From Desulfovibrio oxyclinae DSM 11498 (GTDB lineage: Bacteria; Desulfobacterota; Desulfovibrionia; Desulfovibrionales; Desulfovibrionaceae), in NCBI RefSeq assembly GCF_000375485.1, contig NZ_AQXE01000004.1, positions 104,125-157,527 on the forward strand: a stretch of DNA of 53,403 bases. Reading direction: 5' to 3'. Shown one piece after another: positions 5,966-28,975 of this stretch. The notes beneath the pieces were generated by a model, which searched no databases, was not told where the DNA came from, and was given only the letters and a program-made list of their open reading frames with translations. A program made the translations under genes and the position numbers. Each line of letters begins with the position of its first letter. Within the stretch, counting starts at the first letter, position 1.

Positions 5966-7769
5966 GAATCCGAGGCTGGCGGCCCTGACCGAACTCGGGG
6001 CCCTGTTCCGTGGCGGCAGGGTGGACGAGTGTGCCGCCGGGCCTGTTCATGATGATCCGCCGCGCCATGCGGTTTCGGGCCACACGCCGCTGTGGGCGTT
6101 CGAGCGTCCCCAGTACCAGCGCCCGTTCGCCGGTTCGCAGCAGGCGGTGTTTGATTTTCTGCCGGAGGGCTGCTCCTTGGAGCGCGCGCAGGCGTTTACG
6201 CGGTTGCACGTGGTTCTCGGCGCCGTGGAGAGCGAAACGTTCGACAGCCTCTGTGACGGCGGCCAGAACGTGGTTTTGGTCTTCGACCCGGATGAGGAGC
6301 GCATCGCGCGGCTTGCCGAAAGTCGTGGCGTGAAGGAACTGGTGGCCAAGGGGCTGATATTTTTCAGCGGCGATGTTTACGATTTTTCACCGCCGCTTCA
6401 GGAGTTGCTGCCGGAAAAGCTCTTCACCATGGGCTTTCCGGTCTTTCACGTATCCGAGTCCCTGGGTGAATCCTGCCCACAATGGGTACGCAGCGTGATC
6501 GAGTACGTGGAGATCCTCTTCTACCGTCACGTGATTTACAAGGTCTGCAACCAGCGGCTGCTCAAATCCGTGCCCATCCGCAACATCACGCGCGGCATGA
6601 TGTACGACCAGCAGCTGCACGCCTATGAAAACATTCCGGAATACCTGACGCGCCCGGGCATGGACGTCCTGCGAAACGCCTTCTCCGACGAGACCGCCAT
6701 ACTGGTGGCGGCCGGACCGGACCTTGGCGAGAAGATAGAATTCATCCGCGAAAACGCGGATCGCGCCGTGATCATCTGCGTGAACAACGCGGTGAAGCCG
6801 TTGCTGGAAGCAGACGTACGGCCGCACTTCGTGATCATCAACGACAACTCGCTGGCATCGGGCGAAGTCTTCCGCCGCATCCCCCAGTCTCCGGGAACCA
6901 TCCTCGTGGGCCACTGCCTCTCGGACCTCGGAGGCGACCGTTTCCGCCAGAAATATCTGTTCGGCTCCTTCATGCCGGAAGTCTTTCCCGAGCGCCCCAT
7001 GCTGCGGCTGCACGGCTCGGTGATTTCCACGGCCTTCTCGCTGGCGCGGCACATGGGCTGCGCTGGGACCGTGCTGGTGGGGGCGCGTCTGGGGTCCGAC
7101 AACCCGTGGAGCCTGAGCTACGCCAAGGGCACGGTCCATCACGATTCCCGCGATACTGCCGCGCGCGAACTCATCAACCGCCATCCCCAGCTTTGTCCGG
7201 TGGAACTGCCCGACGGAAGGACCGTCTATTCCACGCCGAACTTCCGCGACGCGGCCCTCTGGTTGTGCGAGGAAATCCGCACCTCGGGCATCGAGTGCGT
7301 GAATACGTCGGAGGGCAGCCTGCTCTTCGGCAAAGGCATCGCTTACGACCCGGCTCCGGTGCTGGAGCGCAGGAGCATCGGCTCGCGTTTCAGCAGGCTC
7401 TTCTCGGCCCCGGAGCCGAGAGTGAACCTGCGGGGCTGCACGGCGTTCATCGAGCGTGACCTGTCCCTGTGGAAGCAGATCGCGGATGCGTCCAAACAGC
7501 TGCGGCAGGCGGACGACGCCTCGCTGCTGGCCAAGGGTGCGGCGGTACTGGAGCAGATGGACGGCTCCAACATCAGCAACATGGTGGAACGTTTTGACGG
7601 GTTCGACTCACGCCATTTCCACGCGGAGGTTTTCGAGTCGGGCGATGCCGAGCGTCAGGCCGAGGGCCTGCGCTATTACTTCCGCCATGTGGAGCGCATG
7701 GCCAAGTCTTTCCTGATGGCGCTGGGCAAGGCGCGCCGCGCCTGCGATGCGGCCCGGGAGCGCGGCTAG
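5958..7769 (+). CDS. DUF115 / motility-associated factor (Maf)-type glycosyltransferase family protein
   Basis: A 603-residue protein with the DUF115 (MptE-like) core at about residues 220-430, seen in the stretches [16 protein letters not shown] and [19 protein letters not shown]. Maf proteins transfer nonulosonate or related sugars to flagellins in several bacteria, and DUF115 proteins often sit near flagellar or surface glycan genes, as here. The start ATG overlaps the end of the preceding sugar-modifying gene by 8 bases and is preceded by GGAGG, so the two are probably translated together. The stop overlaps the convergent radical SAM gene by 4 bases. The acceptor and sugar are not known from the sequence. 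Confidence 0.8.
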
Positions 7770-8836
7770 GACAGCCCCTTTTCGGCCATCAGCCGTTCGG
7801 CCAGTTCGCGGTCGCGGATGTGGAAGAACGGGTCGTTGATATTGCGGGATTTCACCCGGCAGGTCTGGCAGCTCTTGGGCTGCTTTTCGGTGTTCACCGT
7901 CTTGCGGAAGGGCCTGACCGTTTCTCCGAACCACATGTCGTCGAAATCCGTTTTCAGAATATTGCCAAGCGGCGGGGTACTGCCGCAGCAAAAGCGCACG
8001 TTGCCTTCCATGTCGATAAGGCAGTTCTTCCACGGGCTGTGGCAGGTGTGATCCACCTCGGCCTCGTTGAAGCTGGACGGAGGCGTGCCGAAGAAACCCG
8101 GAACGGTGACGTCCACGCCATGACGCTTTCCGGCATCCAGCGCGGCGGCCATGCATTCGTCGCTCAGGTTCTGGTGCAGGAAGAGCGATTCGCGGGCCAG
8201 TTCCTCGCGCTTCTGGGCGTTCATGAAAAGCACCAGCACGCGGTCAACGCCGTGGTCTGCGGCGAGTCGCACAAGGTCCGGCAGTTCGCGGATGTTGCGC
8301 TCCATGGCCACGAAATTGATCTGGAGCTGCGGCTTGTTCCGGCCCTTTCTGGAACGCTCGTCTGCCAGCGCTTTAAGGTTGCCCAGCGTGGCGAAAAGGT
8401 CGCCGCCGCGAATGGATTCGTATGTCTGCTGTGTGGCGGCCTCAAGGCTGACCTTGATCAGCGAGGTCTCGTTGTCCACGAACATGGACCGTCGCCGCTC
8501 GTCCAGCATGGAGCCGTTGGTGATCATCTCCAGCTCGCAGCGGTTTTCTCGCGAGAGCTCGCACAGCTCCTCAAGCCTGCCGTACAGCAGAGGCTCGCCG
8601 CCGAAGGCCTGCACCGTCTTGACGAAGGGCAGCACGTGCCGCAGCCGCTCCACGATGTTCCAGTCCATGTCACCTTTGAAGTGCTGTTGGTAGCACATCC
8701 AGCAGCGGTAGTTGCAGCGCATGGTGGTGGTCAGGGTGATCAGCTTGGGATACGTGACCACGTCCTCGTGGCGATTTTCTGCCACATAGCGGTCGTTGAG
8801 CTGGTCGTTGATTGCGGTGACTCTGGCGAGGTCCAT
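7766..8836 (-). CDS. Radical SAM protein with SPASM-type C-terminal cysteines
   Basis: A 356-residue protein. C41, C45 and C48 form the CX3CX2C motif (CNYRCWMC) that holds the SAM-binding iron-sulfur cluster, and FGGEPLL follows as the SAM-contacting GGE motif. A cysteine-rich C-terminal region (HTCHSPWKNC, RFCCGS, KSCQTC) fits a SPASM or twitch domain with auxiliary clusters. Such enzymes often modify peptides, but relatives also act in aminosugar and surface-glycan loci. It is the last gene of the long minus-strand run, 62 bases after the gene before it, with a good ribosome site (AAGGAGAT). Its substrate is unknown. Confidence 0.87.
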   Translation of the reverse strand: MDLARVTAINDQLNDRYVAENRHEDVVTYPKLITLTTTMRCNYRCWMCYQQHFKGDMDWNIVERLRHVLPFVKTVQAFGGEPLLYGRLEELCELSRENRCELEMITNGSMLDERRRSMFVDNETSLIKVSLEAATQQTYESIRGGDLFATLGNLKALADERSRKGRNKPQLQINFVAMERNIRELPDLVRLAADHGVDRVLVLFMNAQKREELARESLFLHQNLSDECMAAALDAGKRHGVDVTVPGFFGTPPSSFNEAEVDHTCHSPWKNCLIDMEGNVRFCCGSTPPLGNILKTDFDDMWFGETVRPFRKTVNTEKQPKSCQTCRVKSRNINDPFFHIRDRELAERLMAEKGLS

Positions 8837-8898
8837 GGCTGATCTCCTTGGCCTGAGACGTTTGCGACCCGATTTCCGGGCCGGGTTTGTGAAGCGGC

Positions 8899-10347
8899 CT
8901 ATCTGACGGCCTTGAGGACGGCCCTGTAGCAGTAGAGGTCCTCGTCGCGGTAATTCTTCCAGTGTTCATGCAGGCTGCGCGGCGGCACGGGCCGCACGTC
9001 CCGTTCGATGACGGACACGTCGAACCCTTCGGATGCGAACATCTCCGCGATGTCGTTTATCCGCCACAGGTTCGTGCCCCGTTTCATGGCCTGCCACTGG
9101 CGCGGCTCATGGCTGAGAAATTCAAAGTTGATGTGGGAGAGGTCGCCATGGTCCTGAAGACCGATCTCGTGGAGCATGACCCCGCCCGGGCGCATGGTGC
9201 GACGCAGGTAGGCCGCCAGTCCCGGCATGTCCATCACGTGCTCCAGCACCATTCTGGAATGGCAGAAATCGATGCTTTCCGGCGCCAGGGGCATTGCTTG
9301 CAGTTCTCCGTGAAAGAACCGGCTGCGCTTGTCCAGCGCGTCGGCTTCGTACCGGACAGCATCTCCTGACAGCGGAGCCATGCCGGATTCACCGAGCAGC
9401 CGAAGAAAGTCGAGGCTGTCCGCGTAGCCCTGTTCAGAGTGTTTGTATACGTCAGCGCCGTGCACCTCGTCGAAAACGTGTGCCAGCAGCAGCGAGGTGA
9501 GCGGGGTTTTGCCGTGGCCCACTTCAAGTGATGCGCCACGGTGCTCGGGCAGATGCGCGCAAAGACGTCTGGCCTGATTGATCTGCATGGCGGTGCGCAG
9601 GCTGGGGTCGTACGGACTCATCAGGCGCAGGGCCTCGTCCAGCAGCTCGGGGGAGTGCAGGCCGTATCGATGCTGAATGAATGTGTCGAAGGATTCGCGC
9701 GCAAGCCGGTCACTGCCGGTGAACGTGGACAGGAACACCTCGGCCACGCCCTGCGGCACGGCGTTTCGTTCGCCAGCGAACAGCAGCTCCCACAGGAAGC
9801 GCTCGCGCGGGCTCTCCATGTCCTGCTCGGTTTCTATCCTCAGTTCGGCGAACTGCCGCGCCTTTTGCGCAAACACGAACGGCGGCAGGGGGGTGCGATG
9901 GCTCTCGTGGAGCACCTCGGCCGTCCTGCGGTTCAGGACCGTGAAAAACTTGGGCGCGATGACGTCGCCGGGATGGTACAGGTCCGCGTGGTCGGCGCGC
10001 ACGGCCTCCTGTCCGCTGTGGATGGCGGCGGCGTCCATGAGAACGCTGTAGGAGGTCAGCACCGTGACGCTGGCCAGCTCGTGCCGCTCCATGTGCCTGA
10101 GAAGCCGTGTCTGCGGCGTGGCGTGGCGGCTGACCGCCGTCTTGGCGTGCTTCATCCCCGAAAGTGCCTCGCGAATCGCCTCAGGGGTTTCTTCGGGAAC
10201 GGAGATGACGACCTCGTCGAACACGCCGAGACGGAGCAGTTCGCCCAGCACGGTGTCAACGGCGTAGCCGTCTGCGGCGCGCGTCAGGAGCGGATCGCTT
10301 TGGTCCATGGGGCGGGCCAGCAATATTGCCGTGTTTGTGCGGTTCAT
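8899..10347 (-). CDS. Nucleotidyltransferase-like N-terminal region fused to SAM-dependent methyltransferase
   Basis: A 482-residue protein. The first 170 or so residues resemble a degraded sugar/CMP nucleotidyltransferase fold (AILLARPMDQS, then VDTVLGELLRLGVFDEVVIS), but the usual nucleotide-binding signature is not recognisable. The C-terminal half is a class I methyltransferase with motif I LEVGHGKTPLTS, CHSRMVLEHVMDMPGL as the post-motif helix and a MRPGGVML strand. It probably methylates a sugar intermediate or glycan of this locus. It begins 3 bases after the GT2 gene, in the same operon. The methyltransferase half is secure; the N-terminal assignment is a guess from pattern. Confidence 0.75.
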   Translation of the reverse strand: MNRTNTAILLARPMDQSDPLLTRAADGYAVDTVLGELLRLGVFDEVVISVPEETPEAIREALSGMKHAKTAVSRHATPQTRLLRHMERHELASVTVLTSYSVLMDAAAIHSGQEAVRADHADLYHPGDVIAPKFFTVLNRRTAEVLHESHRTPLPPFVFAQKARQFAELRIETEQDMESPRERFLWELLFAGERNAVPQGVAEVFLSTFTGSDRLARESFDTFIQHRYGLHSPELLDEALRLMSPYDPSLRTAMQINQARRLCAHLPEHRGASLEVGHGKTPLTSLLLAHVFDEVHGADVYKHSEQGYADSLDFLRLLGESGMAPLSGDAVRYEADALDKRSRFFHGELQAMPLAPESIDFCHSRMVLEHVMDMPGLAAYLRRTMRPGGVMLHEIGLQDHGDLSHINFEFLSHEPRQWQAMKRGTNLWRINDIAEMFASEGFDVSVIERDVRPVPPRSLHEHWKNYRDEDLYCYRAVLKAVR

Positions 10348-10350
10348 GGG

Positions 10351-11286
10351 CTACTCCTGTTTTCCGGAAAGAAATACCCCGTCCTCGATCCACAGGCCGT
10401 GATAGGGCCGCCACGCGTCCGCTTCCTCGCCGGGGATGATGTGGCGGATGTTCACGGTCAGGGGCCGGGGGTGTCGGTCGCGGGCCTCCGGGCCGATGAA
10501 CGGCAGGCGGCTTTTGTCCAGCCCGCGGATTTCCTCGGTCACGTCGAAATATTCAGTCTGCCGCTCAAGGGGCGGGCGGTTGCGGATGTCCCAGTTGTTG
10601 CGAAGCTGTTCGTCGCGCATGACCTTGAAATTGCACTGCTCATGCACGCGGTAGTGGTAAAGCTTTTCCGGGATGTAGCGGACCTTTTCCGGCCCGGCCA
10701 GTTCCGCCATGGGCAGGTACAGGGCCAGATCGCCCGCCGCCCGGAAGTAGTTTCCGTCGCGGTCGCGGAAGGTCTCGTCCGGGAGCTGCGAGAACAGGTA
10801 GCCCTTGAAGGTGCGCAGCTGGGAGAATCGCCACGACTGTTTGCGCACGGGGGCGGATGCGATGAGCGGCGCGGCGATGGAGTGCCCGCCGCCGTCGATC
10901 TCCTCGTCCGTGTATACGAGGTCGTACCCTTCCCGGTGTGCGCGCATGATCCTGTCGAGGCATTCTGGCAGCAGCCAGTCATCGCCGTCCAGAATGGCCA
11001 CGACGTCCGACGGGGCCGGATCGAGGGCGCGCAGGGCCGCCAGCGTGTTTCCCATGAGCCATTCGCGCTGCACGCCCTCCCGCAGGGATATTCTTGCATC
11101 CTTTTGCATGTAGGCTCGCACGGCGTCGGCGGTGCCGTCGTCGGAGGCGTCGTCGGCCACCAGCGCGGTCCAGTCGGCGAAGGTCTGCCGTTGCAGGGAA
11201 TCAAGGCAGTCGCCGATGTAGGCTTCACAGTTGCGGCAAGGGATGACCACATGCAGCCGGTTCGGATAAAGCGCACTCTCAGTCAT
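10351..11286 (-). CDS. Family 2 glycosyltransferase
   Basis: A 311-residue GT-A fold enzyme. It opens with the GT2 pattern VVIPCRNCEAYIGDCLDSLQ, followed by VADDASDDGT, and carries the metal/nucleotide-sugar motif DGDDW at 100-104. It should transfer a sugar from a nucleotide donor to a growing surface glycan at the cytoplasmic face of the membrane. There is no membrane segment. Its ATG overlaps the end of galE by 8 bases, and the methyltransferase fusion follows 3 bases after its stop, so it is firmly inside the operon. Confidence 0.9.
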   Translation of the reverse strand: MTESALYPNRLHVVIPCRNCEAYIGDCLDSLQRQTFADWTALVADDASDDGTADAVRAYMQKDARISLREGVQREWLMGNTLAALRALDPAPSDVVAILDGDDWLLPECLDRIMRAHREGYDLVYTDEEIDGGGHSIAAPLIASAPVRKQSWRFSQLRTFKGYLFSQLPDETFRDRDGNYFRAAGDLALYLPMAELAGPEKVRYIPEKLYHYRVHEQCNFKVMRDEQLRNNWDIRNRPPLERQTEYFDVTEEIRGLDKSRLPFIGPEARDRHPRPLTVNIRHIIPGEEADAWRPYHGLWIEDGVFLSGKQE

Positions 11287-12256
11287 GGTTTCGCATCCAG
11301 TCGCCAGCGTGGCGGATCATGAGTTCGAGGTTCTGATACCGGGGCTTCCAGCCGAGTCGCCGGGTCGCCAGCGCTGCGTCGGCCACCAGCTTGGAGGGGT
11401 CCCCTTCGCGCACCGGGCCCGCCTTCCATGCCACGGGCTTGCCCGCAACACGTCCGGCGGTTTCGATGACTTCCAGCACCGAGTAGCCGTTACCGCAGCC
11501 GAGGTTCAGGGAGTGATTGCCACCCTCCCGCCGCAGCAGGTCCAGCGCTAGCGCGTGCGCCTCGGCAAGATCGGTCACATGGACGTAGTCGCGCACACAG
11601 GTGCCGTCCGGGGTGTCGTGATTCGTGCCGAAAACCGTCAGTTCCCGGGCCGGATCCATGGCTGCCCCGAGAGCGAGGGGGATCAGGTGGGTCTCCGGAT
11701 CGTGCCGCTCGCCCAGTTCGCCGTCCGGGTCGGCCCCGGCGGCATTGAAATATCGCAAAGCCACGGATTCCAGCCCGTAGGCGGCGCCGAAGTCGCTCAT
11801 GATCCGTTCGATCATCAGCTTGCTCGCGCCGTAGGGGTTGATGGGCGCCACATAGTGGGTTTCATCCAGCGGCAGTCGGTTGGGCGATCCGTAAACCGAA
11901 CAGGTGCTAGAGAAGATGATCCGGCCGCAGTCATGCTCCCGCATGGCTTCCAGCAGATTCAGGGATCCGGTCACGTTGTTGCGGTAGTACTTGGCGGGTT
12001 CGCGGACCGATTCACCCACATAGGCGAAGGCGGCGAAATGCATGACCGCATCAGGTCGGTATTCGCGGAAGCACCGGTCCAGCGCGTCGCGGTCGAGGAT
12101 GTCGGCCTTGACCAGCGGTCCCCACTTGACGGCGTCCTCGTGACCGTGGATCAGGCTGTCGAGCGTAACGGGCTCATGCCCCTGCCGGGCCAGCGCCTTG
12201 CAGGCGTGGCTGCCGATGTATCCGGCTCCCCCGGTTACCAGTATGCGTTCACCCAT
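11279..12256 (-). CDS. galE: UDP-glucose 4-epimerase
   Basis: A 325-residue extended short-chain dehydrogenase that interconverts UDP-glucose and UDP-galactose (or the N-acetyl forms). The NAD-binding motif GGAGYIGS is at 9-16, and the catalytic YXXXK lies in NPYGASKLM. The family segments SSTCSVYG and RYFNAAGADPDGE are also present. I chose the start at MGERIL, which overlaps the preceding GT4 gene by 8 bases. A longer reading to 12373 would add a non-homologous leader inside that gene. Its place in the glycosyltransferase run suggests it supplies Gal or GalNAc for the glycan. Confidence 0.95.
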   Translation of the reverse strand: MGERILVTGGAGYIGSHACKALARQGHEPVTLDSLIHGHEDAVKWGPLVKADILDRDALDRCFREYRPDAVMHFAAFAYVGESVREPAKYYRNNVTGSLNLLEAMREHDCGRIIFSSTCSVYGSPNRLPLDETHYVAPINPYGASKLMIERIMSDFGAAYGLESVALRYFNAAGADPDGELGERHDPETHLIPLALGAAMDPARELTVFGTNHDTPDGTCVRDYVHVTDLAEAHALALDLLRREGGNHSLNLGCGNGYSVLEVIETAGRVAGKPVAWKAGPVREGDPSKLVADAALATRRLGWKPRYQNLELMIRHAGDWMRNHD

Positions 12257-13391
12257 GCGCGCCTCCGGAGCGGGTCGCCTCGGCCACAATGGCTTCAAGC
12301 CGGCCCAACTGTGTTGCAAAGTCGTAGTTGGTGCGAACGTGCTCGCGTCCGGCTTGGCCATAAAGGGCCGCAAGCTGGGGGTCGCGGGCCATGCGCAGCA
12401 TGTTCTCCGTCATGGCGTCCAGCTCGCCTTCTTCGCAGAGCAGCCCGGTGGTTTCGTGCACCACGGCCTCGCGAATGCCAGCGTGCCGGGTGCTGACCAC
12501 CGGAAGGCCCGAAGCCGAAGCTTCAAGAACCGAGTTGGGCGTGCCTTCCTTGTCGCCGGTTTCCGGCGTGACTGAGTGCTGCACGAAGCAGCGCGCCGCA
12601 CGCATGGCCTCCGCCACTTCTTCATGAGGCAGATTGCCGGGAAAGTCGATGCGGTCCGAAAGGCCGAGGTTGCGGGCCAGCCGCATGGCGCTCTCGCGCA
12701 GCACCCCGTCGCCGATCATGCGCAGGCTGGCCTCGGGAATCATCCTTGCCACTTCGGCAAAGGCGCAGACCACGGTCTCAGGGGCCTTCTTGTCCACGAA
12801 GCGGCCCACCGAGATGAAGCGCGGGGCAGCGTCGGCCGGGGTTGCGCTGTCGAACAGGGACGCGTCCACCCCGTAGGGATTGACGTGCAGCCGGTCTTCA
12901 GACGCACCCAGATGCAGCAGGTCGCGCCGCATTTCCAGCGAAACGGCCACAATGGCGGCGGCATTCCCGAAAAGTCTGGCGTAGCCCTCGCGGTATTTCG
13001 CAAGCACCGGCTTGAGCGAGGCGTCGAAGCCGTGAAAGTGTGTCACCAGCGGGACGTCGGCGCGCCTGCACGGCTCCAGCATGGCCACGCCGGTGGGACC
13101 GTATTCCGCAAGCACCGCGTCTATATGATTGTCGCGCAGAAAATCCGCCATGGTCTCGGTGGCCTGCTCGTGCATTTCGTTTTCCACGGCACCGGACGGG
13201 GAGAACAGCCGGGCGGCATCGGCGGGAAGGTCTGGATGCAGCGTGGAACCGTCCTTCCGGAAAAGCGGCATATGCCCGCCATACAGGACTTCCACCACCG
13301 ATTGCAGGCGCTCGGCGTGCGCCCTGATGAAGGTTTCGCACTCCGGGCCCGGGTTGGGGTGGATGATGCAGATTCGCTGCGGTGCGGTCAT
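12249..13391 (-). CDS. Family 4 glycosyltransferase
   Basis: A 380-residue GT-B enzyme. The C-terminal nucleotide-sugar binding half is typical of GT4: FISVGRFVDKKAPE, then EASASGLPVVSTRHAGIREA containing the conserved acidic residue of the EX7E region, and GLLCEEGELDAM. The N-terminal half carries VTHFHGFDA. It probably adds a hexose to the surface glycan. The start overlaps the stop of the upstream GT4-methyltransferase gene by 4 bases (ATGA type), and galE overlaps its end. Confidence 0.92.
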   Translation of the reverse strand: MTAPQRICIIHPNPGPECETFIRAHAERLQSVVEVLYGGHMPLFRKDGSTLHPDLPADAARLFSPSGAVENEMHEQATETMADFLRDNHIDAVLAEYGPTGVAMLEPCRRADVPLVTHFHGFDASLKPVLAKYREGYARLFGNAAAIVAVSLEMRRDLLHLGASEDRLHVNPYGVDASLFDSATPADAAPRFISVGRFVDKKAPETVVCAFAEVARMIPEASLRMIGDGVLRESAMRLARNLGLSDRIDFPGNLPHEEVAEAMRAARCFVQHSVTPETGDKEGTPNSVLEASASGLPVVSTRHAGIREAVVHETTGLLCEEGELDAMTENMLRMARDPQLAALYGQAGREHVRTNYDFATQLGRLEAIVAEATRSGGAHG

Positions 13392-15322: not shown

Positions 15323-16350
15323 CAGGATTCGTCCCCATCGGCCCAGTCGGGGATTGCCACCACGTCGAACACCGCGCCGATGGATTCGCGTGGGATGACG
15401 TACTCGTCGAGTTTGATGCGTTTTTTCAGATCATACGCGACCACTCTGGACGGCAATACCTGCTTATATTCCCCGGTCCTGGAATTGAGAAAATGCTCGA
15501 CATTGTCCTTCCATTTGGTGGTTCGCAGGGTCGTGAATCCGACATATGCCACGTCTCCGTCCACATGGAGCCCGCGACACCAGCCAAGGGGCAGTTCCGT
15601 GCCCTCCAGCGGCATGAGATCCACGACCTCGTCAATCGCCAGAGTGTGCGTGTTGAGGACGATGATCCTGCCATCCACGCTGGTGAAAAATGCATGATCC
15701 CCGACAACGTGCCCGTCATGAACGCGTTTGTCGGACAGGGAAACCGTTCGCCTGTCCGCCAGGCGCATGACGTCGCTCTGGTAGCCTCGCGTCACCCACG
15801 GTTCGCCGTTCATGGAAAGCAGATAGTTGGGGTGGGCGTCGTGGGGCTGGGTGCTGTGCACTTTGCGCCAGTCGTCCTCCGGGTCGTACTTGAACCACGG
15901 GTCGTCGGAGACGGTGTTGACGTAACGCTTGGGTGCGAGCGAGTCGTCGAGCTCGATCACCATGTCGAGGCCCGTAGAGGCCACGGTCACACCGCCGTTC
16001 ATCGGGGCAACGTGATGGATGTCGTGAAAATGTGGGTGCGTGGAATATTGCAACCGTTCAAGTTCCGGCCACGTGTAGACGAACACTTCAGTGCCGGTGC
16101 AGAGATAAAGGCGATCGCCCTGAAGCGTCATGGCGGTGAAACGGATGCCGGGTGTCTCGTCCGGGCGGGCGCCCTGCGGCGTTTCATAGTCCATGAGCAC
16201 GGTTTCCGACTTGTCGGTCCAGTTCAGTCTGGAGAGCCTTGCCCGGAAATAGTGGTTGCCGGACGTGGAGACCATGGCTTCGGCCTCGGGACGTTGCAGG
16301 CCACCGGTGATGAGCAGGGGGGAGAGTCTTGTGTGTGCTTTTGCTGTCAT
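15322..16350 (-). CDS. Protein of unknown function, beta-propeller-like
   Basis: A 342-residue soluble protein with no signal peptide. Its short, repeated beta-strand blocks resemble a propeller (for example GDRLYLCTGTEVFVYTW, NGGVTVASTGLDMVIEL, VVGDHAFFTSVDGRIIVL, VDGDVAYVGFT). The pattern recalls the DUF4915/TIGR03032-type proteins found near glycan or peptide-modification genes, but I am not sure of the family. The start ATG is preceded by TAAGGAG. It follows a 103-base gap and overlaps the GT4-methyltransferase by 1 base. No catalytic motif stands out, so a binding or scaffold role is possible. Confidence 0.6.
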   Translation of the reverse strand: MTAKAHTRLSPLLITGGLQRPEAEAMVSTSGNHYFRARLSRLNWTDKSETVLMDYETPQGARPDETPGIRFTAMTLQGDRLYLCTGTEVFVYTWPELERLQYSTHPHFHDIHHVAPMNGGVTVASTGLDMVIELDDSLAPKRYVNTVSDDPWFKYDPEDDWRKVHSTQPHDAHPNYLLSMNGEPWVTRGYQSDVMRLADRRTVSLSDKRVHDGHVVGDHAFFTSVDGRIIVLNTHTLAIDEVVDLMPLEGTELPLGWCRGLHVDGDVAYVGFTTLRTTKWKDNVEHFLNSRTGEYKQVLPSRVVAYDLKKRIKLDEYVIPRESIGAVFDVVAIPDWADGDES

Positions 16351-16453
16351 CGGGACTCCTTAGATGGTCGTCTCGCAAGAAAAGGGGCGAAAACTGAAAC
16401 AGGTGACCATGTCTTGTGCTACGGATCTGTCTTTGTGAGCTGTTTTTCTCATG

Positions 16454-17242: not shown

Positions 17243-17243
17243 T

Positions 17244-19676: not shown

Positions 19677-19678
19677 GA

Positions 19679-21154: not shown

Positions 21155-21456
21155 GATGCGACTCCTTGGCAGTCCGCTCCACATGTGCTGTCTCTGGTTT
21201 CAAGCCGGTTGTTCCTGCGTGAACGATGCACCGGGCCGTAATTCAATTCAAAACGGGCCGTTATCGTCTCTTCCAAAACACTGCGCCGAATATCGGTGCC
21301 CGGCTCATGGCCTTCTCTGAGCGGGGTCAGGGAAAAGGTGCCGGAGGGGGTGCTGTCGAGAATCCTGCCGCCGGCCATCAGGGTGGACAGAATGGTGCCG
21401 GTGCCGTCGGCCTCGACTCTGGACGGGTCCGCTTTGCCGGTTCGGGAAAGGTTCAT
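21151..21456 (-). CDS. Small protein of unknown function, coupled to radical SAM gene
   Basis: A 101-residue protein that I do not recognise. It has a good ribosome site (GAGGT before the ATG), and its TGA overlaps the ATG of the radical SAM gene by 4 bases, which argues that it is really translated. It is polar, with no membrane segment. The middle reads MAGGRILDSTPSGTFSLT, and the C-terminal tail carries two cysteines (TCGADCQG). It could be a carrier or chaperone partner of the radical SAM enzyme, a substrate peptide, or an unrelated small protein. Only its position favours a link. Confidence 0.6.
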   Translation of the reverse strand: MNLSRTGKADPSRVEADGTGTILSTLMAGGRILDSTPSGTFSLTPLREGHEPGTDIRRSVLEETITARFELNYGPVHRSRRNNRLETRDSTCGADCQGVAS

Positions 21457-21508
21457 GACGACCTCGTTTGTTCAGCACTGTTGAAGGTTGAGAGCACAGG
21501 GCAAAGGG

Positions 21509-22564
21509 TCAGTCCGCGATCCAGTGTTCGACAAGAGACCGCAGGATAGTCCCTTCGCGATAGGAGAATCCGGGAGTGACCTCTTCGCCCAGCACCTCCC
21601 GCCGAATGAGAACTTCGGGTTCGTTGTAGCCCGCCATGGCACGCAGCGAAGTCGTCCCCGAAAACCGCGGGTTGATTTCAAAGACCTTCACCGCGCCGTC
21701 AACCACCCGGCACTGGACGTTGACCGGGGCTTCGGCGCCGAGAACGGACGCTATGGATTCGCACACCTGCGTGACTTCCGGCCACTTTCCCACCTCGCCC
21801 TGACTGATGCCGCTGGAGATGGTCAGCTGTGGGCCGAGGTCCGCTCTGCCGGTCCGGTTGGGAACCCTGAAGCGCGTGCTGATGGCGCCTTCAACCAGAC
21901 GCCGCACGCCGATGGAGTTGAGCAGTTCGCCGTCGCGGCCGAACAGCACCCCTACGGTATACTCTTCTTCGGCGGTTCCCATATACTCCTGCGCCAGCAC
22001 TTCCGGGCAGAAGCCGAGAAGGTACTCGGCCAGAAATTCCAGTTCGCGCTGGTCCTGCGCAATGTAGACATGTGCCGAACCGCCTCCCCCCGAGGAAGGC
22101 TTGAGCACGGCTGGGAGAAAATCAACCTGTTCCGTGTCATCTACCGAGGTAATGGATACGTAGCGGGGCGGTTCGAAACCCTTTTCCATAAGCAACGCGT
22201 TGGTGCGTGCCTTGTTTTGGCAGATGTCGAGGACCCGGGGCGGATTGACCGGAAAGAACACGCCGTTTTTTTCCAGCCGCTCCCGGTTCTGCGAAAAAAC
22301 CGTCATCTCCTGCTCGCATCCGTGGAAGACGGCCTGAATACCGTGTGCTTCAATGACGCGCTCAAGCGATTCAAGGTAGTCGGGAGCCCCGGCAGGCGGA
22401 AGCGTCACGAACTCATCCGAAATAGCTCTGCCCGAACTGCGGGAGGTCATGTCCGAGCCGACGATGTGATAGTCGAGCTCTCCATGCCTCAATGCCTTGA
22501 GGATCTGCTGGCCGTGGCTGGTTCCGCCGAGGGCCGTGACCAGAACGCGTATTTTTTCCGACAT
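21509..22564 (-). CDS. ATP-grasp ligase (carbamoyl-phosphate synthase large chain-like)
   Basis: A 351-residue protein. The N-terminal pre-ATP-grasp domain starts VLVTALGGTSHGQQIL. The ATP-grasp domain shows AVLKPSSGGGGSAHVYIA (phosphate loop), VLAQEYMGTAEEEYTVGVL and the metal-binding FEINPRFSGTTSLR. These enzymes join a carboxylate to an amine or thiol through an acyl phosphate. In surface-glycan loci they may attach amino acids or carbamoyl groups to sugars. The start has AGGGAG 5 bases upstream. It is 13 bases after the phosphoesterase gene and 52 bases before the small 101-residue gene. Confidence 0.88.
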   Translation of the reverse strand: MSEKIRVLVTALGGTSHGQQILKALRHGELDYHIVGSDMTSRSSGRAISDEFVTLPPAGAPDYLESLERVIEAHGIQAVFHGCEQEMTVFSQNRERLEKNGVFFPVNPPRVLDICQNKARTNALLMEKGFEPPRYVSITSVDDTEQVDFLPAVLKPSSGGGGSAHVYIAQDQRELEFLAEYLLGFCPEVLAQEYMGTAEEEYTVGVLFGRDGELLNSIGVRRLVEGAISTRFRVPNRTGRADLGPQLTISSGISQGEVGKWPEVTQVCESIASVLGAEAPVNVQCRVVDGAVKVFEINPRFSGTTSLRAMAGYNEPEVLIRREVLGEEVTPGFSYREGTILRSLVEHWIAD

Positions 22565-22577
22565 GGTAGCTCCCTGT

Positions 22578-23252
22578 TCAGGATTCGGGGTATTGGGCGA
22601 TACGGTTGATAATTTCTTCGTGAAGCGACAGCCGGGCGGCCGCTTTGCGCGTCTCGGTCCCTATGGGGAAACGAATCAGTTCGCCGTGTCCGGTGCCGGT
22701 ATCCAGCACTGCTGCGGAGCCGAGGCCACCGGGATGGCGGGGCAGGGCGCAGCTTCCCGTATTGATGAACGTTTTGCCCCCGACTTCGCGCAGGTCGGCC
22801 CGGTGGGTGTGGCCCATGACCACCACGTCCGCATCCACGTCGAAAAACGGTTCCAGCGAAGTGTCCGGGTAGATGTATTCCCGCAGCGGTTCTCTTGGTG
22901 ATCCGTGCACCATGAGAATCCTTACGTCGTCCTGTTCGATGCGAAGGCTCTGCGGAAGTTGCGACACCCACTCAAGCTGGACGGGCGAAGCCTGACGCGC
23001 GGTGGTTCCCAGCTGCGTCATGGGGTCTTTTGCTGGATCCTGTTCGTCCAGAAGCAGCATGGCTTCATGGTTGCCCTTCAGGCAGGGGATGCTTTCGCGA
23101 CGCAGCGCGTCCGCAGCGCTCCAACCGGGGAAATATCCGACGCTGTCTCCAAGGTGAAAAATCTGCTCGGCACCGTGTCGACGCAAAGCCTCAAGTCCTT
23201 TTTCCAACGCTTCGAAGCAGCCGTGCGAGTCCGAGAGGAAACCAAGGATCAT
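22578..23252 (-). CDS. Metallophosphoesterase (YfcE/calcineurin-like family)
   Basis: A 224-residue enzyme with the five expected metal-site motifs: D-X-H in FLSDSHGCF, GDSVGY, GNHEA, VHGSP and GHTH. The family hydrolyses phosphomonoesters or diesters with a two-metal centre. The start is the ATG overlapping the TGA of the asparagine synthase gene by 4 bases. A longer reading to 23279 is less likely. The substrate in this operon could be a sugar phosphate or nucleotide intermediate; nothing in the sequence decides. Confidence 0.9.
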   Translation of the reverse strand: MILGFLSDSHGCFEALEKGLEALRRHGAEQIFHLGDSVGYFPGWSAADALRRESIPCLKGNHEAMLLLDEQDPAKDPMTQLGTTARQASPVQLEWVSQLPQSLRIEQDDVRILMVHGSPREPLREYIYPDTSLEPFFDVDADVVVMGHTHRADLREVGGKTFINTGSCALPRHPGGLGSAAVLDTGTGHGELIRFPIGTETRKAAARLSLHEEIINRIAQYPES

Positions 23253-25135
23253 GCCGCCCCCTTGAACTGCCGCAGCCACTGCTCGACGTTGAGCAGGGAC
23301 CAGATGAGCAGGCGCCGGTTCTGTGTCCCTTCCAGATGCTCCATGACCAGCTTCCGCACGGCGTCGGGGTCGAGGAACTCATAAATGGCCGCATCGTTCT
23401 TGATAAGGGTTTCGGCCACGAAGCGGATGCTGTCGCCCTTGAACCATGACGCGTCGGGCGCGGAAAAGCCCTGCTTGATGTTCATGGTGATGTCCTCGGG
23501 CACGAAACGGGAGGCCAGACGTCGCAGCAGGCGCTTGCCGTCGTTGGTCTTCTGGAAATACCGCTTGAACTTGGGTCCGACCTCGTTCTCGTTCATGGAG
23601 ACGACATGGTGCAGGTTGTTGAGCTTCATGCTCACGGGCACCTTGGTGGCGAAGTCCACGAGGTCGTTGTCCAGAAACGGCACGCGGTTCTCCAGCCCGT
23701 GGGCCATGGAGAGCTTGTCTTCCACCACCAGCAGGCCGTGCAGGAAGGTCTTGGCTTCGAAATACAGGGAGTTGTTCACCGCCTGCTCCGGGGTGCAGGG
23801 CAGGGTCCGGCGCTGGCCGAACACGTCGCAGAAGATGTCCCGCGTCCAGACGTGTTTTACTTCGGACCAGACGGGCGCGAAGACCTGCTGGATGAGTCGG
23901 TTGGGAATCAGCCGCTGCCAGAAGACGTAATACTGATCCACATAGTGTTCGAAGTCGTCGCAGACCAGCGCCCTGTAATAGCGCCACGGATAGCCGCCGA
24001 ACAACTCGTCGCCGCCGGAACCGCTCAGGACCACCTTGACGAAGCGCGAGGCGAGCTTGGCCGCGTAGAAATTCGGGTAGCTCTGGCCCACGCGCGGCTC
24101 TTCCAGATGCCGGGTCAGATCCGGCAGGCAGCGTTCCATGTCGCCGGCCTTGAGCACCATCTCGTAATGCTCGGTCTTGAACATGTACGACATGCGCTCT
24201 GCCGTGGCCCGTTCGTCAAAGGTCAGCTCCAGCCCCGAGGCCGAACTCAGGTCGAAGCCGCAGGTGAAGCTCTTGATGTAGGACTGCTCACCGGCCGCCA
24301 CGGCGGAAATGGATCCGGAGTCGATGCCGCCGGAGAGGTAGGCGCCCAACTCCACGTCGCTGACCATCTGTCGCTTCACCGCATTGTTGAAGAGGTGGTC
24401 GAGCTCTTCGAGATATTCGTCCTCGGTCAGATGCGTGTCCGGCTCCGTGAAGTCGAAATCCCAGTAGCGACGAAGCGAAAGCTCGCCACCGACAGCGTCC
24501 GCGCCGAGGGTGGCGGTGCAGCCCGGGTGAAAGAGCCTGACGCCCTTGGACAGGGTCTTGTCCGTGAAGAAATTCTGGAAGGTGAAGTATTCGAGCAGCC
24601 CTTCGAAGTCGATCTCCCGTCGCGCCTCGGGGTGCGCGAGGATGGCCTTCTGCTCGGAGCCGAACAGAAAGGTGCGGCCGAAGAAGGCGTAGTAGAGCGG
24701 CTTGATGCCGTAGCGGTCCCGCGCCAGAAAAAGTTCGCGCCTGCGGTCGTCCCACACGGCAAAGGCGAACATGCCGTTGAAGCGCTCCACGCAGCGTGCG
24801 CCCCACTCGGCGTAGGCCTTGAGCACCACCTCGGTGTCGGATGTGGAGCGAAAGCTGTGGCCACGGTGTTCCAGATCCTGACGGAGTTCCCGGAAATTGT
24901 AGAGTTCGCCATTGTAGGAAATGGAGAACCGGCCGTCGCCGGTTCGCATAGGCTGCGCTCCGGTCGGGGAGAGGTCCAGAATGGCCAGCCGCCGGTGTCC
25001 GAGCCCGGCGGGGCCGCTGACGAAAACCCCTTCGCCGTCCGGGCCGCGATGGGCGATGGCGTCGGTCATGCCCTGCAACGCTTCATGCGACGGGTTCCTG
25101 CCCGAAAGATCGAGTATTCCGCAGATGCCGCACAT
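23249..25135 (-). CDS. asnB: Asparagine synthase (glutamine-hydrolysing) family amidotransferase
   Basis: A 628-residue protein with the class II glutaminase nucleophile C2 (MCGICGIL), the RGPDG loop, SYNGELYNF, and the synthetase PP-loop SGGIDS at 268-273. The length matches the longer AsnB subgroup found in capsule, O-antigen and natural-product clusters, where members form amides on sugar uronic acids rather than free asparagine. Its place between a formyltransferase and a phosphoesterase in a glycan operon makes such a role likely, but true asparagine synthesis cannot be excluded. It is 3 bases after the preceding gene and overlaps the next by 4. Confidence 0.92.
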   Translation of the reverse strand: MCGICGILDLSGRNPSHEALQGMTDAIAHRGPDGEGVFVSGPAGLGHRRLAILDLSPTGAQPMRTGDGRFSISYNGELYNFRELRQDLEHRGHSFRSTSDTEVVLKAYAEWGARCVERFNGMFAFAVWDDRRRELFLARDRYGIKPLYYAFFGRTFLFGSEQKAILAHPEARREIDFEGLLEYFTFQNFFTDKTLSKGVRLFHPGCTATLGADAVGGELSLRRYWDFDFTEPDTHLTEDEYLEELDHLFNNAVKRQMVSDVELGAYLSGGIDSGSISAVAAGEQSYIKSFTCGFDLSSASGLELTFDERATAERMSYMFKTEHYEMVLKAGDMERCLPDLTRHLEEPRVGQSYPNFYAAKLASRFVKVVLSGSGGDELFGGYPWRYYRALVCDDFEHYVDQYYVFWQRLIPNRLIQQVFAPVWSEVKHVWTRDIFCDVFGQRRTLPCTPEQAVNNSLYFEAKTFLHGLLVVEDKLSMAHGLENRVPFLDNDLVDFATKVPVSMKLNNLHHVVSMNENEVGPKFKRYFQKTNDGKRLLRRLASRFVPEDITMNIKQGFSAPDASWFKGDSIRFVAETLIKNDAAIYEFLDPDAVRKLVMEHLEGTQNRRLLIWSLLNVEQWLRQFKGAA

Positions 25136-25138
25136 GAT

Positions 25139-26866
25139 CTAACTCCGGGGCCCTTCGTGGAATTGTTGCCACAGGCTGTTGGACGAGCGCAGGTAGCTGT
25201 CCTGCTCTGCGCCTCGCTTTTTCAGAATCCGCGCGAGAATCTCCGTGGTCCTCACGGGCTCGTCCCACATCCACCACATGGGGTGCACGAGTATTTGCAG
25301 CCTGTCCCACTGGCCTGAGCGGATCATCTCACCGGGGTGCCCCTCGCGCCAGTGGGCGTTGCTCTCGCTGATGTACTTGGTCTCCGGCAGCATGAAGCGC
25401 GGATCGTAGCCGCTGACGTAGGCGTCCGTGCGGGGCGCGCGGTTGACCACCTCGGCAGGCGGGTTGTGGAAAGTGACCATGTTGCCGATCTCCACCGGGC
25501 ACGCCTTGCGGAAAAGCTCCAACTCGGCAGTCACCGCGGCGTCGATGTCGTCAGGGGCGTCCGGGATGCGGCTCGGATCGCAGTGCAGGCCGATGCGGTG
25601 CCCCAACTGCGCGATGGCCCTGATGGCGGCTGCGGTCTCCGGCTCCAGAATATTGTACAGTCCGCCCCGGAGCATGAAGAAATATGCTGCGCAAAAACCC
25701 TTTTCATGTTCCATGCGGGCCATCTCCAACGCCATGGCCGGGCTCTTGTCCACGTCGTGGCGCAGGAAAAGGGTGCGCCCGGCCGTCAACGGCTCATCAT
25801 AGAAGCCGCATTCGTAGCCGCCGTCCGAAAGGGCGTCCAGAAGCTGCGAGTACTGCCTGCGGGTGAAGCCGAACCCTTCGTGGTCTGTCTGGGCATACAT
25901 GGCTTCAAGCTTTTCCAGACTGCGGTTGTGCTCGCTGTGCAAAACGTTGTCCTCGGCGGGCGTCCAACCATCCGGGGAGTCCCAGTCGGACACAAAATAG
26001 CTCCCATCGCCCGCTTTGACCGCAAAAGTGCCGTCGTGGAACGCGCCCACCACGGTGCCGGGAGTTGCATCATCAAAGCGCAGGCTGGTGTCGAAGGGCG
26101 CGCCGCCCCAGACATTGATGCGGGTGCCGTCACAGGTGGTATACGCTCCGGGATACGGTCTTGATACGGCGCGCACGAGCCTGTCGATGCGTTCTACCGG
26201 TTCACGCCAGTCAATGACGCCGTCTTCGGGCGTGCGCTTGGGGTAGTAGGTGGGTGTCACGTCCTGCGGCTGCGGATGCGTTGGCGCGGTGCCGTCCAGC
26301 AGCGCGGGCAGGTGCTCCAAAAGCAGCCTGATCTGGCTCAGGGTGTTCTTGTGCCGCAGGCTCCGGATGGTGTCGCGCTCGGTGATGTCGAAACGCTGGG
26401 TGCCGACGATCTCGCCGGAATCCACGCCGGGGTCGTACTTGAAAAGGTTCGTGTAGAAGCGGTCCCTGCCTTCGATGATGGACCAGTTCATGGGGGAGCG
26501 GCCGCGGCCTCTCGGCAGCGGTTCCGCGCTGCCGTGCATTCCGAAGGCTCCGATGCTCAGGGTTTCGAGAAACCACTCGGGAAACAGCCGCTGCCACCCG
26601 GCGGAGATGAGCAGGTCGATGCCAATGTCCTCGAACTGGCGTCTGCTGGCGTCGTCCTTCATGGCGTAGGTGGCGGGGTGCACCACCGGGACCCCGAGGC
26701 TTTCGGCCAGCGGGCGCAAGTCCTGATAGTCGGCAATTCCGTCGCTGTGGGAAGCGTCCATGTGCAGCAGGCAGGCCACGTCGTATCCCGCTTGGCGCAC
26801 GGCGCGCAGGGTGTCTGCGCAGGTGGACTGGTTGCCCGCTATGGCGATGGTCTTGCCGCGGTTCAT
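25139..26866 (-). CDS. Formyltransferase domain fused to polysaccharide-deacetylase-like domain
   Basis: A 575-residue fusion starting at MNRGKTIAI, where the ATG overlaps the aminotransferase stop by 1 base. Residues 1 to about 330 form a formyl-THF-dependent transferase of the ArnA/Fmt type, with GMHGSAEPLPRGRGRSPMNW at 109-128 and the catalytic-type aspartate D149 in GVDSGEI. The Asn of the usual N-X-H is replaced by G109. From about residue 380 there is a NodB-like domain with LFLRHDVDKS and RIGLHCDPSR. Together these suggest N-formylation of an amino sugar, with deacetylation or a related hydrolysis by the second domain. The DegT aminotransferase before it would make the amine. Confidence 0.85.
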   Translation of the reverse strand: MNRGKTIAIAGNQSTCADTLRAVRQAGYDVACLLHMDASHSDGIADYQDLRPLAESLGVPVVHPATYAMKDDASRRQFEDIGIDLLISAGWQRLFPEWFLETLSIGAFGMHGSAEPLPRGRGRSPMNWSIIEGRDRFYTNLFKYDPGVDSGEIVGTQRFDITERDTIRSLRHKNTLSQIRLLLEHLPALLDGTAPTHPQPQDVTPTYYPKRTPEDGVIDWREPVERIDRLVRAVSRPYPGAYTTCDGTRINVWGGAPFDTSLRFDDATPGTVVGAFHDGTFAVKAGDGSYFVSDWDSPDGWTPAEDNVLHSEHNRSLEKLEAMYAQTDHEGFGFTRRQYSQLLDALSDGGYECGFYDEPLTAGRTLFLRHDVDKSPAMALEMARMEHEKGFCAAYFFMLRGGLYNILEPETAAAIRAIAQLGHRIGLHCDPSRIPDAPDDIDAAVTAELELFRKACPVEIGNMVTFHNPPAEVVNRAPRTDAYVSGYDPRFMLPETKYISESNAHWREGHPGEMIRSGQWDRLQILVHPMWWMWDEPVRTTEILARILKKRGAEQDSYLRSSNSLWQQFHEGPRS

Positions 26867-27969
26867 CACAGCACCTTCTTTAGTGTTTCGAGCACCTTGT
26901 CCTGCTCCGCCTCGGTCATGCCGTGATACAGGGGCAGGGCGAGAGCCTCGTTGTACGCCCGGATGCTGCCGCTCATGTCGCCTTCGATGCGGCAAAGGGG
27001 ATTGTCGGCAAAGGCTTCGTGCATATGCAGGGAGAAAGTGCCGATCTGCACCTCGATGCCCGCCGCGCGCATGTCCGCCATGACGCGGTCGCGCTCGGGG
27101 ACGAACACGCAGAAGGTCTGCCACGAGTGTTCGCCGTCCGGAGTGATGGCGGGCAGGGAGATTCCGTCCGCCCCGTCGAGCTTTTCCCGGTAGACGTCGG
27201 CCAGCCTGCGGCGTTCGGCGAGCAGGTCGTTGACCATGCCCATCTGCTCAAGGCCAACTGCCGCCAGCAGGTTGCTCATCTTGTAATTGGTGCCGATGCG
27301 GCTGAACTGCGATCCTGCCCTCGAAGTGGCCGCGCCCATGCCGAAATGCTTGTAGGAATGCATCCACTCGGCCCATTCGGTGTTGTTCGTGGTCACGGTG
27401 CCGCCTTCGCCCGTGGTGATGAACTTGCGCGGGTGGTGGCTGAAGACCGAGATGTCGGCCAATGCGCCGGTCATGATGCCGTCAAAGGATGAACCGAGGG
27501 CGCACGCGGCGTCCTCAACCATGTATAGTCCGTGCCGCTGCCTGATTTCGTTCAGCCGCTTCCAGTCCAGTGGGTTGCCGAACAGGGAGACCGGGATGAC
27601 GGCCCGCGTCCTTTCGGTGACGGCGGCTTCCAGCGCATCGCTGTCCATGAGCATGGTGTCGGGATCGACGTCCACGATGACGGCGGTGGCCCCAACGATG
27701 TTCACCACGGACGCGGTGGCCGGGTAGGTGTAGTCCGGCACGATAACCTCGTGACCCGGACCGATGCCCAGCGCGCGCAGGGCCAGCTCAAGGCCGGTGG
27801 TGCAGGAGGTTACCGCGAGGCAGCGCGCCGCGCCGCAGAATCCGGCGATGCGTTGCTCGAATTCGCGGGTCACGGGTCCTTCGGTGAGATAGCCGGAGTC
27901 GAGCACCTGCGTGACGCGCTCCTTGAGGGCGTCGGTGATCACCGGTTTGATGAGCGGAATCTCGTACAT
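26866..27969 (-). CDS. DegT/DnrJ/EryC1/StrS family sugar aminotransferase
   Basis: A 367-residue PLP enzyme. K182 in HHPRKFITTGEGG is the expected PLP-binding lysine, and VEDAACALGS holds the aspartate that contacts the pyridine nitrogen. The family aminates keto-sugars bound to UDP or dTDP. Gene order (epimerase/dehydratase, aminotransferase, formyltransferase) is the usual one for making N-formylated amino sugars. It could also act on the product of the Gfo/Idh dehydrogenase at 4379. A ribosome site AGGAAGG lies 10 bases upstream. The end overlaps the next gene by 1 base. Confidence 0.93.
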   Translation of the reverse strand: MYEIPLIKPVITDALKERVTQVLDSGYLTEGPVTREFEQRIAGFCGAARCLAVTSCTTGLELALRALGIGPGHEVIVPDYTYPATASVVNIVGATAVIVDVDPDTMLMDSDALEAAVTERTRAVIPVSLFGNPLDWKRLNEIRQRHGLYMVEDAACALGSSFDGIMTGALADISVFSHHPRKFITTGEGGTVTTNNTEWAEWMHSYKHFGMGAATSRAGSQFSRIGTNYKMSNLLAAVGLEQMGMVNDLLAERRRLADVYREKLDGADGISLPAITPDGEHSWQTFCVFVPERDRVMADMRAAGIEVQIGTFSLHMHEAFADNPLCRIEGDMSGSIRAYNEALALPLYHGMTEAEQDKVLETLKKVL

Positions 27970-27970
27970 G

Positions 27971-28975
27971 CTATCTGGCCTTCCTGCGCCTGCGGTCCAC
28001 TTCCTCGATGTGGTTCTTGCGCCACTCGATGAGCTCGGACAGCCCTTCGCGCAGCTGCTTCTCGGCCTTGAAGTCGATCTCCTGCTCGGCTTTTTCCGGG
28101 CAGCCCACGCGGTTTTTCACGAAGGTCAGCCCACCGGGCTTGTATTCGATTTCGAGATCGGAGCCGGTCAGCTCCAGGAGCAGTTCGGCCAGCTGCTTGA
28201 TGGAGGTCTTGATGCCGGTGCCGACGTTGTAGAAGCTGTCGGTGGCGTCGGATTTCATGGCGCAGATGTTGGCGCGGGCGCAGTCGCCCACGTACACGAA
28301 GTCGTAGGACTGGGAACCGTCGCCGTAGACCACCGGCGGAAGCCCCTGGTCCAGCCTGTCGAGAATCTTCATGATCACCGCAATGTAGGTGCCCTGATAG
28401 TCCTGACGCGGGCCGTACACGTTCATGTAGCGCAGCCCGTTGTAGTCGAAGGCCTGATCCGTATCCTTGTAGCGGTGGTGCAGGGAGCGGCACATGTGCT
28501 CGCCCGCGATCTTGGTGGCGCCGTAGAAATTGGTGTTGTTATAGGGGTGGTCTTCCTTCATGGGCTCGGAAACCGCGTCGCCGTAAACCGAGGCGGAAGA
28601 GGAGTAGACCAGCTTTTTGACGCCGTTGTTCAGCATGGCTTCGAGGACGTTGAAGGTGCCGCCTATGTTGACCTCGAAGGCGGAACGTGGAAAATCGTAG
28701 CAGTGCAGCAGCCACAGGGCGGCGAGGTGGAACACCCCGTCCACGTCCTTCATGGCGGCATCGAGAATGTCGCGGTGCAGCAGCTCCCCGCCGAGGTCGT
28801 AGATGTTTACACGCGGGTCTTTCAGGGCCGAGGCGAGGTTCTCCTCGCTGCCGCGCGTGAGGTTGTCGTAGACGCGGACTTCCCTGACGCCTTCGTCCAG
28901 AAGTTGATCCACGAGATGGGAGCCGATGAACCCGGCGCCCCCGATGACCAGCATTGTCTTGTCCTTGAGATCCAT
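27971..28975 (-). CDS. NAD-dependent nucleotide-sugar epimerase/dehydratase
   Basis: A 334-residue extended SDR enzyme with NAD-binding motif GGAGFIGS, YSSSASVYGDAV and catalytic YXXXK in NFYGATKIAGE. A further segment NVYGPRQDYQGTY is typical of the UDP-glucose epimerase/GDP-mannose dehydratase-like branch. The start at MDLKDKTM is chosen because the longer reading to 29104 adds an unrelated leader and runs into the control region. This is the first gene of the long minus-strand operon, so it probably supplies the keto-sugar or epimer used by the aminotransferase 1 base downstream. Confidence 0.9.
   Translation of the reverse strand: MDLKDKTMLVIGGAGFIGSHLVDQLLDEGVREVRVYDNLTRGSEENLASALKDPRVNIYDLGGELLHRDILDAAMKDVDGVFHLAALWLLHCYDFPRSAFEVNIGGTFNVLEAMLNNGVKKLVYSSSASVYGDAVSEPMKEDHPYNNTNFYGATKIAGEHMCRSLHHRYKDTDQAFDYNGLRYMNVYGPRQDYQGTYIAVIMKILDRLDQGLPPVVYGDGSQSYDFVYVGDCARANICAMKSDATDSFYNVGTGIKTSIKQLAELLLELTGSDLEIEYKPGGLTFVKNRVGCPEKAEQEIDFKAEKQLREGLSELIEWRKNHIEEVDRRRRKAR

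Follow-up and report, generated by a model that had tools for sequence, protein, structure and literature searches.

The window analysed here, a 53,403-nucleotide stretch of Desulfovibrio oxyclinae DSM 11498, carries a run of minus-strand genes (28975-7766) between a Maf-like gene and a radical SAM gene for which we use our own label, ElpRS. As the intervals between Maf and ElpRS vary so widely in the genus, we take the run to be one form of a hypervariable glycan slot with stable borders, whose states include a nearly empty one. On balance, we consider it somewhat probable that this glycosylation slot of the chromosome houses a glycan cassette that differs between species and that builds, here, an oligosaccharide to be attached to flagellin in the cytoplasm. 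The more novel element of the cassette is FT-PDA, in which a formyltransferase-like (FT) domain is fused to a CE4/NodB-like domain (PDA).

A variable slot between stable borders

Our survey covered 36 genomes of the genus, with Maf and ElpRS matches taken at E 1e-20 and the best match per genome used. Maf relatives occur in 28 genomes and ElpRS relatives in 35. Both genes are present in 27, on one contig in 23 and on separate contigs in 4, and one genome with Maf has no ElpRS match. On the 23 shared contigs, the Maf-ElpRS interval measures 0.2-1.9 kb in 8 genomes, 5.9 kb in 1, 21.5-69.6 kb in 12, and >120 kb in 2; in the window it is 21.5 kb. In G001 and G015 (genomes and loci bear our own G and L labels, G000 being D. 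oxyclinae), Maf and ElpRS lie 125 and 202 kb apart on one contig, which may mean that these genomes have a divided or relocated slot. The 18 open reading frames (ORFs) of the run, in which an ORF check found no internal stops, and the genes beside them are as follows.

27971..28975, minus: SDR, NAD-dependent sugar epimerase/dehydratase (PF01370; 87% identity to the G006 slot, 62% to Raymondbacteria L064)
26866..27969, minus: DegT/DnrJ/EryC1 sugar aminotransferase (PF01041; 70-73% to G305, G314 and G006)
25139..26866, minus: FT-PDA, formyltransferase-like domain (~1-308) fused to a CE4/NodB-like domain (~326-575)
23249..25135, minus: AsnB-like glutamine amidotransferase (PF00733/PF13537; TIGR01536 above cut-off)
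22578..23252, minus: YfcE-like metallophosphoesterase (PF12850; TIGR00040 above cut-off; partner of ATP-grasp in G020)
21509..22564, minus: ATP-grasp protein, PRK12767 type (NF009402 above cut-off; 50% to G020)
21151..21456, minus: doubtful ORF of 101 amino acids (intermediate codon score; no family, no relative)
19679..21154, minus: rSAM1, radical SAM protein of a rare family (PF04055)
18114..19676, minus: membrane protein without a family, 8 hydrophobic segments (GT-C-like according to the earlier note on this DNA; ~29% to G305/G314 proteins)
17244..17996, minus: CMPt, cytidylyltransferase of the CMP-nonulosonate type (partial PF02348 match; best solved relative NeuA)
16454..17281, minus: U16, uncharacterised partner of CMPt (relatives beside CMPt homologues)
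15322..16350, minus: U15, uncharacterised protein (no family; no relative in compared loci)
13388..15322, minus: GT4 glycosyltransferase fused to a methyltransferase (PF13692 + PF08241)
12249..13391, minus: GT4 glycosyltransferase (PF00534)
11279..12256, minus: GalE, UDP-glucose 4-epimerase (TIGR01179, 419 bits, above cut-off)
10351..11286, minus: GT2 glycosyltransferase (PF00535; 64% to G308)
8899..10347, minus: methyltransferase (PF13489 in the C-terminal half; N-terminal half without a family)
7766..8836, minus: radical SAM/SPASM protein (PF04055 + PF13186; 62% to G308, where it also adjoins GT2)
5958..7769, plus: Maf-like protein, putative flagellin glycosyltransferase (PF01973, 83.5 bits; convergent with the run)
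4250..5965, plus: GFOhex, Gfo/Idh/MocA dehydrogenase fused to a hexapeptide acetyltransferase (PF01408 + PF00132)
2517..4175, minus: NadE, left slot border (PF02540)
29292..30350, plus: ElpRS, radical SAM gene, right slot border (PF04055/PF16199)

Modules of the run recur in other slots in different combinations. The slots of G305 and G314 hold relatives of GFOhex (59-60%), DegT (70%), AsnB (70%), the membrane protein (29%), and a CMP-sugar synthetase (32-33%), which the membrane-protein relative precedes there too. No FT-PDA match was found in these two slots at E 1e-10; in G305, the one of the pair that was scanned for it, AsnB is followed by WbuX, HisH, and HisF2, an acetamidino module with all three members above cut-off. 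The G006 slot shares GFOhex (58%), SDR (87%), DegT (73%), and AsnB (67%), and that of G308 shares GFOhex (62%), the SPASM protein (62%), and GT2 (64%). On a short contig of G020, beside ElpRS, lie relatives of the metallophosphoesterase (38%), ATP-grasp (50%), PDA (29%), FT (35%), DegT (51%), CMPt (37%), and U16. A more distant example is the Desulfobacterales contig L021, with DegT (69%), FT-PDA (69%), AsnB (71%), CMPt (43%), and rSAM1 (32%). Judged by these similarities, the run appears to be a modular mosaic, a species-variable cassette in a conserved slot beside a Maf-like gene. L021 also encodes a NodU-like protein (L021:9336-11069; 105 bits against a cut-off of 1000), which hints at a carbamoylated sugar in that cluster.

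The Maf-like gene and GFOhex, both convergent with the run, seem to belong with it. GFOhex overlaps the start of Maf by 8 bases, and its relatives in G305, G314, G006, and G308 are 58-62% identical. NadE (67-72%) adjoins Maf in 13 of the 15 fetched Maf loci; in the window, GFOhex sits between them. Farther out, the flanks are mostly housekeeping genes (NadE, carbamoyltransferase, dihydroorotase, and HisG families). If the slot reading is correct, stable borders, interchangeable modules, and a nearly empty state would make the effects of single modules on the surface glycan comparable across related species.

As for rSAM1, a large word-limited search found nine proteins of its family at E 1e-3 or better, five of them at >=58% identity, its own sequence included. 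Orthologues across the order were considered and rejected: in a search that scored at most four candidates per genome, 94 of 348 genomes, D. oxyclinae among them, reached E 1e-12; outside D. oxyclinae the strongest match had E 2e-23, and most matches cover the radical SAM core only.

Proposed route and target of the glycan

From the gene content we infer the following route, conditional in every substrate, in the order of its steps, and in flagellin as its target. GFOhex, DegT, and SDR would produce an N-acylated diamino, perhaps uronic, nucleotide sugar, to which AsnB and ATP-grasp would add amide or amino-acid groups. FT-PDA would swap N-acetyl for N-formyl. CMPt, together with the lone NeuB of the genome, would supply an activated nonulosonate, and the Maf-like enzyme would join it to flagellin. 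Extension and capping of the chain would fall to the GT2 and GT4 enzymes and the methyltransferases, and the flagellar export apparatus would carry the glycosylated protein out, so that no sugar exporter would be needed. The presence of AsnB hints that this sugar may be a uronic acid; elsewhere the genome has three strong matches to the sugar-nucleotide 6-dehydrogenase family.

The earlier note had listed the enzymes of an amino-sugar glycan and had seen no Wzx, Wzy, or Wzm, and the family matches bear out both statements. It had also called the genes a complete set for building, modifying, and exporting the glycan, which the family matches do not support. No flippase, polymerase, or ABC exporter family was recognised in the 18 run genes, the 8-segment membrane protein having no family, nor was any polyprenyl-phosphate sugar initiator family, with the membrane protein, U15, and U16 all lacking a family. 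Moreover, the likely core is completed only by GFOhex, a plus-strand gene that is not part of the run.

Exporters are also scarce in the sister slots. By hydropathy count, 5 of the 389 ORFs called in 11 other long slots have at least five hydrophobic segments, and one in the window run does; the 389 include flanks and some spurious ORFs, and the transporter controls of the window score 11, 8, and 6. Four of these five ORFs have no Pfam match, namely the relatives of the run's membrane protein in G305 and G314, one ORF of G006, and one of G023. The fifth, in the G023 slot, is an ABC transporter, and we therefore dropped the view that exporters are entirely absent from the sister slots; a 651-residue protein of G308 was rejected as a second one, as it resembles neither a Pfam family nor the G023 transporter. 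Judged by this count and by the Pfam matches of the ORFs that it picked out, most slots, not all, are thus without a visible exporter. This scarcity fits cytoplasmic glycosylation of flagellin, and in Aeromonas Maf-dependent flagellin glycosylation precedes export, as described in PMC4065374.

A Maf-type gene (PF01973) is linked to the run, and this linkage is kept in the genus. Of the nonulosonate genes, CMPt lies in the run and NeuB elsewhere. Of the 18 fetched sequences, 5 contain a NeuB relative; it falls within the slot in four (G312, G308, G002, and G024) and next to it in G009. The genome has two PF02348 genes, CMPt and one that adjoins a Kdo-transferase-like gene, and motifs identify the latter PF02348 gene as KdsB and suggest the name of its neighbour. 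With the second gene accounted for in this way, CMPt appears the likely partner of the orphan NeuB. The neighbours of the lone NeuB are a winged-helix (helix-turn-helix) gene and a CheW/response-regulator protein.

Several observations weigh against flagellin as the target. The Maf label is weak: the PseD model scores 27.8 bits against a cut-off of 670, the family matched (PF01973) is named after MptE, and the genome has a second PF01973 gene. The match to PDB entry 5mu5, which we take to be a Maf structure, is also weak (E 6e-5). The only NeuB lies on another contig (G000:C7, L140:9258-10355), and the CMPt match covers 121 of the 217 positions of the PF02348 profile. All three flagellin-N (PF00669) matches of the genome are on other contigs; a linked flagellin gene is usual, though not universal, in Aeromonas islands. 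A purely cytoplasmic route offers no task for the 8-segment membrane protein, which may be a divergent polymerase. The G023 slot contains an ABC transporter (ABC_membrane and ABC_tran fused, L130:13285-15240), a type absent from the window and seen in only this one of the 18 sequences fetched. Finally, Wzx-family and Wzy_C genes lie ~5 kb apart on another contig (G000:C3:243029-249214), and it is possible that they export the product in trans.

The last three points also speak for a different product, a lipopolysaccharide (LPS) O-chain, a core extension, or another surface glycan, with exporter and ligase encoded elsewhere in the genome. Further support comes from the core of the cassette, which resembles O-antigen diamino-sugar pathways. 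The closest solved structure to the acetyltransferase half of GFOhex is 3mqg, a lipopolysaccharides biosynthesis acetyltransferase (201 bits); DegT matches WbpE at 170 bits, though other aminotransferases reach 233; the predicted PDA fold is like that of WbmS; and FT-PDA pairs elsewhere lie in mixed glycan clusters. However, neither an initiating transferase nor an exporter is recognised in the run, the slot is linked to Maf, and the short distance between Wzx and Wzy_C suggests a cluster of their own, probably one for a separate surface glycan. We therefore regard a surface glycan as unlikely. That the glycan is placed on another protein or on a glycolipid, with the Maf-like gene a bystander, is more improbable still: the flagellins are unlinked and Maf is not matched at E 1e-20 in 8 of the 36 genomes surveyed, but Maf lies at most 70 kb from the right border of the slot in 21 of the 27 genomes with both genes.

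The FT-PDA fusion

Sugar N-formyltransferases use an Asn-His-Asp catalytic triad. The FT half of FT-PDA has the predicted formyltransferase fold, with a C-terminal domain as in the ArnA type. In the alignment, the active-site His and Asp are present in 20 of 20 proteins and the position of Asn is Gly in all 20. The same Gly was found in 119 of 120 proteins, with 1 unscored, these being the best 120 of 696, own included and not picked by motif. We therefore rejected an ordinary ArnA-type formyltransferase, as the catalytic Asn is missing.

The PDA half was folded alone, since a search with the whole FT-PDA model returned FT matches. Its predicted fold is that of NodB/CE4 proteins. The window PDA domain matches no Pfam family, and its sequence similarity to solved CE4 members is marginal (best E 0.011). 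CE4 deacetylases have an Asp-His-His metal site; in PDA, the DxD motif and the first His are present in 21 of 21 proteins, and a His four residues on is found in 3 of 21, so the classic metal site is mostly incomplete. Another residue could serve for the second His.

FT is paired with PDA in 44 of 49 genome loci from many phyla, and the pair occurs in both bacteria and haloarchaea; in some relatives, such as L064, the two are separate proteins. These loci came from a scan seeded on the motifs GA[FY]GMHGS and P[KR]GRGRSPM, so that Gly is partly selected in this set. Among the five without PDA, only L025 (5 kb) and L027 (10 kb) are short loci; the other three are L030, L031, and L068. Within the genus, G009 has two FT relatives (33-36%) that lack both the motif and PDA. 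We tentatively propose, as a possibility about which we remain rather doubtful, that FT-PDA is a bifunctional N-acyl-exchange enzyme, in which PDA would deacetylate an N-acetyl sugar and FT, without the catalytic Asn, would formylate the freed amine. If so, the pair would represent a widespread and as yet undescribed way of making N-formyl sugars, which here takes the place of the acetamidino module of a sister cassette. In any case, an FT half without a residue held to be catalytic makes FT-PDA a clear biochemical target.

Gene structure and transcription of the run

According to the earlier note, the run is a single polycistronic operon of eighteen co-directional genes joined by short overlaps or gaps. 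Co-direction is confirmed by the ORFs and by the opposite-strand genes at both ends, ElpRS on the right (29292, plus) and Maf on the left (ending at 7769, plus), whose 3' end overlaps the last run gene by 4 bases, tail to tail. The chance of 17-18 co-directional genes is ~1 in 100,000 if strands are independent, which operon genes are not. Neighbouring genes overlap by 1-8 bases or stand 1-13 bases apart, save for the four larger gaps already reported (117, 103, 62, and 52 bases, the first with the CMPt start set at 17996) and an overlap of 38 bases between CMPt and U16 that the earlier note does not list.

As to gene number, 17 genes are supported and the 101-residue ORF (21456-21151) is doubtful. 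With a codon score trained on the other run genes, this ORF being kept out, it scores 0.076, intermediate between 16 of the other 17 genes (0.20-0.43) and the other frames of the same stretch (-0.17 to -0.41). Its second-position GC is 0.58, it matches no family, and none of the compared loci holds a relative. The codon score of U16 is even lower (0.032), yet U16 is probably a real gene, because its relatives adjoin CMPt homologues in two other genomes, G002 (E 3e-8) and G020 (E 7e-6). In the window, no Rfam family matched at the gathering threshold and a tRNA scan found none.

A single transcript of the whole run is a candidate arrangement. Two or three blocks (SDR to ATP-grasp, rSAM1 to U16, and U15 to SPASM), acquired and transcribed separately, are a possibility to which we give a little less than an even chance and which is compatible with either glycan reading. 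GC differs from block to block (first block, 0.627 and 0.603; second, 0.553; third, 0.639), modules recur independently in other genomes, and, once the doubtful ORF is dropped, a gap of 354 bases separates ATP-grasp from rSAM1. On the minus strand, promoter-like matches lie upstream of the first gene (29104-29076) and inside the run (17275-17246), the latter favouring separate blocks, and terminator-like matches also occur inside the run (e.g., 21304-21285). However, both kinds of match appear in the scans at chance frequency only, and the single strand throughout, with most junctions overlapping or nearly so, argues against separate blocks.

Comparison with known systems

The wlb/wbm genes of Bordetella and the wbp genes of Pseudomonas encode O-antigen diamino-uronate pathways. 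They share with the cassette the sugar dehydrogenase, DegT aminotransferase, and hexapeptide acetyltransferase families, and WbmS shares the CE4 fold of PDA, although it is absent from the sequence matches of the PDA profile. Unlike these loci (gene names in PMC3849452), the cassette has no recognised polymerase or export genes, includes a CMP-sugar synthetase and a Maf-like gene, and has FT and PDA fused.

FT resembles the ArnA-type N-formyltransferases in fold, C-terminal domain, and active-site His and Asp. It differs from them in having Gly for Asn two residues before His, two extra residues after HGS, and PDA as a partner. In turn, PDA is like the CE4/NodB deacetylases in predicted fold, DxD, and first His, and unlike them in that the second His is mostly absent (3/21) and the sequence similarity is marginal.

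Polymorphic flagellin glycosylation islands are known in Aeromonas (PMC7874193). Like the polar flagellin islands described there, the slot combines Maf, several glycosyltransferases, and sugar-modifying enzymes, and the group III islands also hold Gfo/Idh/MocA, N-acetyltransferase, and pyridoxal phosphate-dependent transferase genes (PMC7874193). The Aeromonas islands contain pse genes, and most of these islands lie downstream of flagellin genes, whereas here NeuB and the flagellins are encoded elsewhere. Formyltransferase, asparagine synthase, and radical SAM genes are not mentioned for these islands in the main text of PMC7874193. The gene set of the cassette was not found in the open-licence papers searched, in agreement with the earlier view that its order of functions is not that of a described locus. 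Altogether, the cassette is most simply viewed as a variant, with a gene set of its own, of the known polymorphic flagellin glycosylation islands.

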